From contig NZ_JBBYXJ010000002.1 of assembly GCF_039655775.1 (NCBI RefSeq), forward strand, positions 930,001 to 994,000: 64,000 nt of DNA, written 5' to 3'. The notes beneath the pieces are model-generated. The model did no database searches. It had not been told where the DNA came from and saw only the letters and a program-made list of their open reading frames with translations. The DNA comes from Iodidimonas sp. SYSU 1G8 (GTDB taxonomy: Bacteria > Pseudomonadota > Alphaproteobacteria > SMXS01). A program made the position numbers and the translations under genes. Below are positions 18,977 through 22,761 of this stretch, piece by piece. The first letter of the stretch is position 1, and the number at the start of each line of letters is the position of its first letter.

Positions 18977-19000
18977 GCCTGAGGCGACAGGTAAAAGAAA

Positions 19001-19028
19001 GGCCGGCGGGATGACCGCCGGCCTTTTT
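19001..19028. terminator. Terminator between clpA and the flotillin gene, probably bidirectional
   Basis: A perfect 9-bp stem GGCCGGCGG / CCGCCGGCC with a 5-base loop, followed by TTTTT on the plus strand. The minus strand reads TTTCTTTT after the same stem, so it can end transcripts from both sides. Confidence 0.93.
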
Positions 19029-19047: not shown

Positions 19048-20808
19048 CTACGCTGCGCCGTTCTTCTTGTCCAACTGCGCTGGCTGGGCGAGACCCGCGA
19101 GAGTCTTGCCATCGATGCCGAGTTCGCCGAGCAGCGAGTCGACCAGCGGCGCCTGCGCTCTGTATCGCAGCGCGCCCGACACCATCTGGTCGGCGAGATT
19201 GCCGTCGGTCTGGCCGCCGTTGCCGTCATGGCCACCGCCACCGCCCGCGCCGGTGATGCCGTCCACCTGGATGATCTTGATGCTGTCGATATTCTCCATG
19301 GGCTTCACGCTCTCGCGGATGATCTGGTCCAGATGCTCGATCAGCTTGATCCTGATCTGCATGGCGACCTGCTCGGCGGACAGCATGTTCGCGGCCTCGT
19401 TGATGGCGCGCTTGCCCTCGGCGTCGACCCGGTAAGTGATCTCGGCGGCGGCGGCACGCGCTTTCTGGGCTTCCGCCTCGGCTTCCGCATTGATCTTGAT
19501 CTGGTCGGCATGGGCTCGGGCCTGCTCTCGCACTGCCTCGGCCCGGTCAGCGGCGGCCAGCTTCTCTGCTTCGGCCGAGACACGGACCGCGATCGCTTCG
19601 GTTTCGGCCTGCTTGGCCGCTTCGATCAGGTCGATCTGCTTGTCGCGGGACGCGATTTCGGTCTCGCGCGCGGTGATCACCTGTTCGGCTGCCTGAACCG
19701 CCTTGGCGCGCGCGAAATCCGCCTCGGTCGCGGACTCCGACTGGGCCTTCGAGCGTTCGGCAATGGCGATGGCGCGGTCCTGCTCGGCCAGTTCGACCGT
19801 CTTCTTGCGCTCTACCTCCTGGGTTTCGATGGTCCGCTCCTTCTCGATCTCACGCTCGCGGATCTGTCGTTCCTTGGTGATCCGTTGTTCCTCGAGCGCG
19901 CGTTCGGCGGTGATCTTGGAAGCCTCGACCTGCTGCTTGGCGACGATGCGCGCCTGTTCGGCTTCCTGTTCCTTCGACGCCTGTTCGCGGGCGATCTCCG
20001 TGGCCTGCTGGGCGCGCCGGATCTCGATCTCCCGCTGCTGTTCCATGCGCGCATATTCCTGGTCGCGCAGGATGCTCAGTTTCAGCTTCTCGGTTTCCAG
20101 ATTCTTGTTCTCGATCTGAACCGACGTATCCTGCTCGATGTCGTTGCGGATTTTCTTCCGGCGCTCGATCTCGTCGGTCAGGCGAGTGAGGCCCTCCGCG
20201 TCGAAAGCGTTGTCCGGGTTGAAGAATTCGCGGCTCGTCTGGTCGAGCCCGGTGAGCGAGACAGACTCCAGTTCGAGGCCGTTCTTGAGCAGGTCTTCCG
20301 TGACCGCCTGCTGTACCTTCTGGACGAAGTTGGTCCGCTGTTCATGCAGCTCGGTCATGGTCATCTCGGCGGCCACGGAGCGTAGCGCATCGACGAACTT
20401 GCCCTCGACCAGATCCTTCAGTTGATCCGGCATCAGGGTCCGCTGACCCAGGGTCTGGGCCGCCGCGGCGATGGATTCCACCGACGGCTGCACCCGGACA
20501 TAGAACTCGGCGACCACGTCCACGCGCATGCGGTCGCGGGTGATCAGCGCCTGATCGGTGGCCCGGTTCACCGCCAGGCGCAGCGTGTTCATGTTGACCC
20601 AGATGATCTCGTGCAGCACCGGCAGCACCAGCGCGCCGCCATTCAGGATCACCTTCTGGCCGCCGAAGCCGGTACGGACAAAGGACACTTCCTTTGACGC
20701 CCGCCGGTACAGGCGGGAAAAAATCAGCCCGACCGCGAACAGGCCGATGATGATGGCCAGCGCGATGAAAATAATCGTCATCAATCCGACGCCGTCCTCG
20801 AAATTCAT
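19048..20808 (-). CDS. Flotillin (YqiK/FloT family)
   Basis: A membrane scaffold protein of lipid microdomains. The 586-residue protein has an N-terminal transmembrane helix (IIFIALAIIIGLFAVGLIF, ~14-32), an SPFH/band-7 domain (~50-230, with TRDRMRVDVVAEFYVRV), a long Glu/Ala/Arg/Gln-rich coiled coil (~240-480) that oligomerises, and a Gly-rich tail. ATG 20808 is preceded by AGAGGGGG at a proper distance. It is last in a four-gene minus-strand run with yqiJ, pspA and an RHH-like gene, so its job is probably envelope stress response. Confidence 0.93.
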   Translation of the reverse strand: MNFEDGVGLMTIIFIALAIIIGLFAVGLIFSRLYRRASKEVSFVRTGFGGQKVILNGGALVLPVLHEIIWVNMNTLRLAVNRATDQALITRDRMRVDVVAEFYVRVQPSVESIAAAAQTLGQRTLMPDQLKDLVEGKFVDALRSVAAEMTMTELHEQRTNFVQKVQQAVTEDLLKNGLELESVSLTGLDQTSREFFNPDNAFDAEGLTRLTDEIERRKKIRNDIEQDTSVQIENKNLETEKLKLSILRDQEYARMEQQREIEIRRAQQATEIAREQASKEQEAEQARIVAKQQVEASKITAERALEEQRITKERQIREREIEKERTIETQEVERKKTVELAEQDRAIAIAERSKAQSESATEADFARAKAVQAAEQVITARETEIASRDKQIDLIEAAKQAETEAIAVRVSAEAEKLAAADRAEAVREQARAHADQIKINAEAEAEAQKARAAAAEITYRVDAEGKRAINEAANMLSAEQVAMQIRIKLIEHLDQIIRESVKPMENIDSIKIIQVDGITGAGGGGGHDGNGGQTDGNLADQMVSGALRYRAQAPLVDSLLGELGIDGKTLAGLAQPAQLDKKNGAA

Positions 20809-20827
20809 GCTCAAATCCCCCTCTGCT

Positions 20828-21484
20828 TCAGTTCAGTAAATTCTCGTTGATCTCGCCAATGGCGAAAAATGTCCCTCCGGCGCGCCGCACAAGCAGCACC
20901 TGCTTGCCCTGTGGAAATTCCTCGCCGTCATTGTCGGGCTCGACCATGACGTAATGATCCTGCTGAAAGGCGTCGCGCACCTTGGCCTGGGCCGCCGACC
21001 CGTTGCGCGCCGTGCCCAGGACGATGGTCGCGACCCGGCCGACCAGACTGTCGCGGGAGACTGCGCTGGTTTCGTCCTTGGGCATGATCCGTCCGATCAC
21101 GCCGCCCAGCCCGCGCACGGTGGGCAGGCTGAGCAGGAAGGCGGGAATGACGGCGATCCAGCCGGGCCAGAGAAATCCCAGCGCATCGCTGGTGATGCTC
21201 TGCAGCGCGAGGCCGATCACACCGAACGAGGTGAGGAAGATCACCAGCAGGATCAGGATCGGCACTTCGCCCACTCGCAGCCAGGACAGCAGCGCGCCAA
21301 GCGTATCGTGTCCGTCGGCGCCGGCATCGACCGAGATGTCGCTCTCCGGGAAAAGCCCCTCCAGGGCCGACGAGATGCCGCTTCCGAAGAAGAATCCGAT
21401 GGCTTCGGCGAGGGCGATCAGAGTCATGACGCCGAGCGCGACGGTGAAGGGCAGGGTCTGCCAGGCAGTCAGGAATGTCCACAT
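20828..21484 (-). CDS. YqiJ family membrane protein (DUF1449-like)
   Basis: A 218-residue partner of flotillins. Hydrophobic segments are at about 10-34 (FTVALGVMTLIALAEAIGFF), 73-100 (VPILILLVIFLTSFGVIGL) and 105-125; the C-terminal ~80 residues form a soluble OB-fold-like domain (SLVGRVATIVLGTARNG...QVLLVRRAGGTFFAI), like NfeD-type proteins that accompany flotillins. The gene lies 19 bases upstream of the flotillin start, the same pair as yqiJK of E. coli. Confidence 0.85.
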   Translation of the reverse strand: MWTFLTAWQTLPFTVALGVMTLIALAEAIGFFFGSGISSALEGLFPESDISVDAGADGHDTLGALLSWLRVGEVPILILLVIFLTSFGVIGLALQSITSDALGFLWPGWIAVIPAFLLSLPTVRGLGGVIGRIMPKDETSAVSRDSLVGRVATIVLGTARNGSAAQAKVRDAFQQDHYVMVEPDNDGEEFPQGKQVLLVRRAGGTFFAIGEINENLLN

Positions 21485-21496
21485 GACCGCATCGGG

Positions 21497-22174
21497 TCAG
21501 GACTGGCGGTTGGACTTGATGCTCGCCAGCCGCTCCTTTACCCGGTTCTCCCGCGCCAGCTTTTCCAGTTCCTGGAGCTGGGCGGCGTTCGCGGTCGACG
21601 CCGTGCCGAGCCCGGGCACGCCGCCATTCTTTTCGAGCACACGGTCGAAGGCCGAGCTGGCCTTGTCGATGGCGCGGTTGACCTTGTTGCCCGTATGAGG
21701 CGCGCCGTCGGCGCCGGTCTCGCCCGCGGCAATCCGGCGGGAGTCGGCAAAGCGCTTCAGTTCCTCGCGCATTTCCCGGCGCTTGGCCTGGAGGGCGGCG
21801 ATGAAGCCTTCCAGCTCCTTCTCCCGCTCCTGGCATTCCATGATCGTCTGCTCGAGCACGGGCATCTGGGCCTCGATGTCCAGCTGGCTTTCGACGGCGA
21901 CCTGAGCGAGGTCCTCCCGTCCGCTGTCCAGGGCGATCTCGATTTTTCCAGCTAGGTCTTCGTGCGCGGCGTTCTTTTCGGCCAGGCGCTTGTTCGCCAG
22001 ATGCTTCGCCGCGGAAGCGCGGCCCAGTTCCTGGCGGACGTCGTCGATGGCGACGTCGATCTCGCGAATCGCCTGGTCCATCACGGTTTCCGGCGCGGCG
22101 CCCTCGACGGCGTCCAGCAATGCATTGACGCTGCCGCTGATGATGCGTCCCACCCGGCTTGCAATCGTATCCAT
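21497..22174 (-). CDS. PspA/IM30 family protein
   Basis: A 225-residue, almost fully helical protein with the PspA hallmark of long coiled coils: an N-terminal amphipathic helix (TIASRVGRIISGSVNALLD), then ARREAL-type helices (ELGRASAAKHLANKRLAEKN and KELEGFIAALQAKRREMREEL). PspA proteins bind and stabilise stressed inner membranes. It lacks a neighbouring pspB/C or pspF; instead it sits between an RHH-like gene and yqiJ-flotillin, 12 bases from the latter pair. Confidence 0.87.
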   Translation of the reverse strand: MDTIASRVGRIISGSVNALLDAVEGAAPETVMDQAIREIDVAIDDVRQELGRASAAKHLANKRLAEKNAAHEDLAGKIEIALDSGREDLAQVAVESQLDIEAQMPVLEQTIMECQEREKELEGFIAALQAKRREMREELKRFADSRRIAAGETGADGAPHTGNKVNRAIDKASSAFDRVLEKNGGVPGLGTASTANAAQLQELEKLARENRVKERLASIKSNRQS

Positions 22175-22179
22175 GAGTA

Positions 22180-22698
22180 TCAGACCCCCTTGGTAACTTG
22201 ACTTGAATGATTGATCGCCGCCGCCAATTCCACGATCGGCCGGGCTTTATCCTTAATAAGAGTCTCGTCGTAGCAGGGCGCTACCCTGGTTATGCCCAAC
22301 CTTAGCAAACTGGCGAACAGGCGAAAACAGCGTTCGGCCATGCCGGCCTCCAGCGCCACGAGGTCGTTCCTCCGGCTGGCTGGCCGAATACGGCTGGACA
22401 GATAGAACGCCAGCATCTCGGGCAAGGCGTGAGCGGTGGCCGCCAGCAGTTCGGACCGCGTCTTTTCCTCATGCTCGGCGATGCGGATGTCGGCGGTCGC
22501 GGCGGATGTAAGGTCCTCGGCCAGCCGCAGCCCGTCCGCGTAGCTGGCCGGGCGCTCGCCCCGCTCGCGGGCCAGCCGGATGATGGCGCGCACCTTCTCG
22601 CTCGGCGTCACGGCGTCCGGTGCGGTGAAGCCCGCGATGAAATCCGCTTCGTCCTGGGTCAGGCGAACACTGATCTGTACCGACTTGGCCACCGTCAT
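22180..22698 (-). CDS. Uncharacterised protein with ribbon-helix-helix-like N-terminus
   Basis: I do not recognise this 172-residue family. Residues about 5-45 (SVQISVRLTQDEADFIAG then TPSEKVRAIIRLARER) have the strand-helix-helix pattern of RHH DNA-binding or antitoxin-type domains. The rest is helical with no known motif. It is the first gene of the PspA-YqiJ-flotillin run (5 bases before pspA), and a palindrome overlaps its -35 region, so it may autoregulate the operon. The start codon is uncertain: TTG, ATG and GTG lie within 12 bases of GAGGG. Confidence 0.65.
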   Translation of the reverse strand: MTVAKSVQISVRLTQDEADFIAGFTAPDAVTPSEKVRAIIRLARERGERPASYADGLRLAEDLTSAATADIRIAEHEEKTRSELLAATAHALPEMLAFYLSSRIRPASRRNDLVALEAGMAERCFRLFASLLRLGITRVAPCYDETLIKDKARPIVELAAAINHSSQVTKGV

Positions 22699-22724
22699 CA
22701 ACCCTCATCCAGTCTCTGTCGGGG

Positions 22725-22761
22725 ATGATGGTTTCTTTTGAATACATTTGTCAACAGATGT
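22725..22761 (-). promoter_or_regulatory. Promoter and palindromic operator of the RHH-PspA-YqiJ-flotillin operon
   Basis: On the minus strand TTGACA (22754-22749) is followed after 18 bases by CATCAT (22730-22725). The -35 lies inside the palindrome ACATTTGT-ca-ACAGATGT (22744-22761; 7 of 8 positions symmetric). A repressor bound here would block RNA polymerase. The RHH-like first gene is the natural candidate, by inference. Confidence 0.5.

Follow-up and report, generated by a model that had tools for sequence, protein, structure and literature searches.

A PspA-YqiJ-flotillin operon headed by a ribbon-helix-helix gene, with a conserved candidate operator over its promoter

On the minus strand of the window, by which we mean the whole 64,000-nucleotide stretch of DNA analysed here, a gene for a ribbon-helix-helix (RHH) protein heads a tightly spaced operon that continues with pspA, yqiJ and a flotillin gene. 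We consider it probable that this is a PspF-independent PspA/flotillin operon under an RHH autoregulator, which would bind two boxes over the promoter and act most likely as a repressor. The PspA systems described so far are controlled by an activator (PspF), by two-component systems (Lia) or by ClgR. An RHH autoregulator tied to pspA-yqiJ-flotillin in at least two classes would represent another control logic for PspA, and through this arrangement PspA, NfeD-like and flotillin proteins are inherited together as a unit.

The four-gene unit and its distribution

The operon runs from 22698 to 19048 on the minus strand in the order rhh-pspA-yqiJ-flotillin, the intergenic gaps measuring 5, 12 and 13 bp. 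At its head, rhh (22698-22180) encodes a 172-aa protein outside all curated families, in which an RHH domain is followed by a helical C-terminal part. The product of pspA (22174-21497, 225 aa) is a divergent member of the PspA/IM30 family: its match to PspA_IM30 (PF04012, E = 2.4e-14) scores 53.9 bits against a gathering score of 33.9, while on the PspA equivalog model TIGR02977 it reaches 53 bits, far under the cut-off of 243. The third gene, yqiJ (21484-20828), encodes a 218-aa NfeD-like membrane protein with the Pfam domains YqiJ_N (PF21001, 1.8e-36) and YqiJ_OB (PF07290, 2.2e-29), and the last (20814-19048) a flotillin, a YqiK-like SPFH protein of 588 aa with the Pfam domains Flot (PF15975, 2.6e-40) and Band_7 (PF01145, 8.4e-17). 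A YqiJ-type gene followed by a flotillin gene places the pair in the NfeD-SPFH2 (YqiJ-YqiK) type. A terminator-like hairpin of 12 pairs with a T-rich tail (18998-19026, minus strand) lies 3' of the flotillin gene, before the convergent clpA. GC content around the operon is ordinary, and Rfam revealed no structured RNA in the operon region.

The gene content of the window points to an alphaproteobacterium. A profile built from four rhh homologues recovered 11 true members from 387 genomes of the class and four from a sample of the phylum, and a sixteenth, from the gammaproteobacterium Amphritea balenae, was added by tblastn. These 16 homologues come from 12-13 families, which belong to Alphaproteobacteria and to other Pseudomonadota, among them Gammaproteobacteria. 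In every one of the 16 loci rhh is immediately followed by pspA and yqiJ; flotillin comes next in 15, the contig of the remaining locus stopping inside yqiJ. An earlier note on this DNA had described a tight four-gene operon, and had made its reading depend on the order being conserved in relatives and on the first gene staying with pspA; both hold wherever rhh occurs, and a gene order so consistently kept with its first gene is not a product of chance. With a 16-sequence profile no orphan rhh homologue was found in 398 genomes, and a plasmid collection contained no homologue. Weak profile matches in three genomes (G015, G052 and G659) lie inside frames of 611-801 aa and were dismissed. Outside the four, no gene is common to different families, which marks these four as the unit. 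In one locus pspA is split over two reading frames (L021:7294-8027), reflecting either a frameshift or an assembly error.

YqiJ is found in 28 genomes of the class. In eleven of them the RHH gene and the short PspA occur jointly, and in the other 17 neither lies beside yqiJ, which indicates that the RHH gene and the short type of PspA go together. In six of the 17 (L074, L075, L078, L079, L081 and L082) another kind of PspA-like protein, in a frame of 389-409 aa from stop to stop, precedes YqiJ-flotillin, with neither RHH gene nor operator.

The RHH gene is absent from all same-genus genomes searched, as is YqiJ from the three of these that are complete enough for the class sample. A clean empty site is present in five same-genus genomes and one of another genus of the same family (L130-L135): here clpA faces a FemAB-like gene at a distance of about 100-140 bp with nothing between, and both genes flank the operon in the window. 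In a genome of a third genus (G007) the operon is present at this same clpA/FemAB-like location. Given the empty sites in kin and the operon at the same place in the third genus, the four-gene operon is a discrete unit that has been gained or lost as one block.

The first protein

The first protein is predicted to begin with an RHH domain (residues 1-50; 22549-22698, minus strand), a fold assignment that owes more to profile comparison than to structure. First, hhalign of residues 1-50 from the 16 members against 19 RHH_1 sequences returned a probability of 92.9 (E = 3.8e-7), with the alignment in register across the strand and both helices; none of 100 column-shuffled profiles reached this score, and the reversed profile gave no match. 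Second, AlphaFold2 modelled residues 1-50 with a pLDDT of 82 as an extended segment (1-14, including S10 and R12) and two helices (15-23 and 32-48), the model being a monomer, in which the ribbon could not form. Foldseek with this N-terminal model returned nothing significant (top match 1xrx, E = 6.2), and PDB sequence searches with the full and N-terminal profiles gave insignificant helical matches or none. The RHH-like N-terminus proposed in the earlier note, for which an RHH fold in structure prediction was to be the touchstone, is thus supported by the profile match and by the strand-helix-helix model of residues 1-50, the full-length model (from a two-sequence alignment) being poor and, at a pLDDT of 41, unusable.

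Scans of single rhh proteins against Pfam and NCBIfam gave no family above cut-off, nor did any member tested exceed the cut-off of a curated RHH model. Weak matches of single members, all under cut-off, fell on DUF6290, NikA-like, CB_ParB_C and the RelB antitoxin, families that we take to be RHH or RHH-like. A type II toxin-antitoxin module with an RHH antitoxin was considered and rejected, as no toxin gene is adjacent and the neighbour is pspA in all 16 loci.

Five residues are invariant in all 16 proteins, S10 and R12 in the strand and S33, K35 and R37 in helix B. AmrZ reads bases through its strand residues Lys18, Val20 and Arg22 (PMC3325190); when this spacing is placed on the rhh protein it falls on residues 8, 10 and 12, the last two invariant, and contact with bases is accordingly a prediction from sequence. 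Conservation extends into the C-terminal part, which is predicted to be all-helical and has S82, W91, E117 and a PCY motif as landmarks (W91 is present in 12 of the 16 proteins, that of the window not among them). Close to the C-terminus, the PCY-like motif of the window protein (22180-22698) contains Cys142, a cysteine that 11 of 16 members share and that may mark a redox or ligand site.

The candidate operator and the mode of control

A palindromic EM motif and a leave-one-out scan define a candidate operator of two 8-bp boxes at 22739-22756 on the minus strand, box 1 (TGTTGACA) covering 22756-22749 and box 2 (TGTATTCA) 22746-22739, with starts 10 bp apart. The stretch singled out in the earlier note, which ended at 22761, happens to take it in. 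Among relatives the palindromic 8-bp consensus, TGTATACA, recurs as two and sometimes three boxes whose spacing, 10 bp, is one helical turn. Taken over the 200 bp before each of the 16 rhh starts, the motif attains 17.9 bits per sequence, compared with a mean of 10.0 and a maximum of 10.5 bits in 25 shuffled sets. Box pairs exactly 10 bp apart number 20 where 0.13 are expected, and there are six pairs at 20 bp, mostly marking third boxes. When each locus and its close kin were removed from the model before that locus (9-64 kb) was scanned, the operator came out top in 14 of the 16 loci and took second place in the remaining two; in the window it scored 22.9 bits, against 11.1 for the next-best site in 64 kb. 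It is weak in three loci (L005, L021 and L026). The 17 RHH-less yqiJ-flotillin operons contain nothing comparable, scoring at most 8.5 bits. Across the window genome (G000; 3.9 Mb, two contigs) no site other than the operator matches with three mismatches or fewer, and in most genomes matches beyond the operon are few; the genome-wide pattern was derived from these same sites, and the leave-one-out scan is the stronger test. Further operator-like boxes lie at L006:8956-8973 and in the upstream regions of L022, L023, L033, L034 and L036, and these extra boxes suggest that more than two dimers may be bound in some relatives.

The sole promoter-like match on either strand between 18900 and 22900 is TTGACA-N18-CATCAT (22725-22754, minus strand; 10 of 12 positions matching). 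Its -35 hexamer lies inside box 1, and together the two boxes extend over this hexamer and some of the spacer. When promoter-like scores around the operator were compared over the 16 loci, they lay above every one of 200 shuffled means, and in the window this analysis picked the same site. Occlusion of RNA polymerase would be the simplest reading of the overlap between boxes and -35, and we infer it from this geometry. That a candidate operator is conserved upstream of rhh itself points to autoregulation.

We therefore propose, as a model, that the RHH protein would bind the two adjacent 8-bp boxes over the operon promoter, that two cooperating dimers would most likely occupy them, and that the bound protein would repress rhh-pspA-yqiJ-flotillin. 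Of the proteins so controlled, PspA/IM30 would serve membrane remodelling, and YqiJ and flotillin (NfeD-SPFH) would form a membrane-microdomain pair. A signal that would release repression (PspA, flotillin, the membrane or a ligand) is likely to enter through the conserved C-terminal helices of the RHH protein, and the possible role in sensing the membrane or binding PspA that the earlier note gave to this part is compatible with all observations. A more specific version, which we offer tentatively, is that upon membrane damage PspA or the flotillin-YqiJ complex might bind the helical part, free the tandem operator and so induce its own operon. Were PspA or flotillin-YqiJ indeed to pull the RHH protein off its operator, the operon would constitute a repressor-based PspA circuit, a convergent counterpart of PspA-PspF control.

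The sign of control could be the opposite, with the RHH protein binding the boxes yet activating its own operon, or doing both. The RHH fold leaves this open, as AmrZ and H. pylori NikR both activate and repress (PMC3325190), and the position of the operator is variable, lying anywhere between -28 and -124 with respect to the rhh start codon. We nevertheless regard activation as unlikely, given that RHH proteins are mostly repressors (PMC3325190) and that the window boxes, which overlie the -35 and some of the spacer, occupy a position typical of occlusion. Less probable still is a first protein that does not bind DNA and instead fills the CesT/Tir-like slot as an adaptor or chaperone of PspA, leaving the boxes to another regulator. 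Against this stand the RHH profile match of the N-terminus, the invariance of S10 and R12 where RHH proteins contact bases, and the confinement of the operator to loci with the RHH gene; what speaks for it is the conserved, predicted helical C-terminal part and the pairing of a CesT/Tir-like protein with PspA in related flotillin/YqiJ operons (PMC11237479). It is possible that the first protein is both a DNA-binding regulator and a PspA adaptor. A third alternative takes the boxes, which do overlap promoter-like hexamers, for a general promoter element or for a site bound by some global regulator that has nothing to do with rhh. This is highly improbable, in view of the single match in the window genome, the few matches outside the operon in most others, and a dyad with strict 10-bp phasing that is not a sigma-factor element.

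Relation to PspF and to known systems

The window genome has a single PspA, that of the operon; it contains no PspF-family protein over the TIGR02974 cut-off, and no PspF gene lies beside the operon. Among 15 RHH genomes searched, ten likewise have no PspF over cut-off, and five (G204, G279, G307, G376 and G709) also carry a true PspF beside a second, canonical pspA, so that both PspA types are present side by side in these genomes. Coexistence in five genomes and no PspF in ten indicate that the RHH-PspA operon is a separate system and not a rewired canonical Psp. The earlier note's suggestion of a control scheme other than PspF is supported by these results, and by a candidate operator that points to autoregulation.

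The E. coli psp system (pspF, pspABC) shares with the window operon a PspA/IM30-family protein and a presumed role in membrane stress. It differs in being controlled by the sigma-54 activator PspF, whereas the window operon is headed by an RHH gene and lacks PspB and PspC. Closer in content are operons from the broad survey of PspA neighbourhoods by Ravi et al. 2024 (PMC11237479), where PspA occurs with flotillin, YqiJ-type proteins and a CesT/Tir-like partner. These CesT/Tir-PspA-flotillin-AAA-YqiJ operons likewise combine PspA, flotillin and a YqiJ-type membrane protein, but there the partner of pspA is CesT/Tir-like, while in the window it is an RHH protein and there is no AAA ATPase. The main text of the survey names an RHH factor solely as the final gene in a different operon. 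On Pfam profiles, no CesT/Tir-like match to the first protein was seen. In open-access literature on PspA or flotillin with RHH we found no description of an rhh-pspA-yqiJ-flotillin operon.

The yqiJ-flotillin pair is the same module as the NfeD-SPFH2 operons yqiJ-yqiK and yuaF-yuaG (PMC2636767), to which the window operon adds rhh-pspA in front and an operator. With MetJ, CopG, Arc and AmrZ the first protein has in common the strand-helix-helix N-terminus, the base-contact positions of the strand and an operator whose two neighbouring boxes point to dimers bound in pairs. Unlike them, it falls outside the curated RHH families, carries a long conserved helical C-terminal part and is dedicated to a pspA operon.
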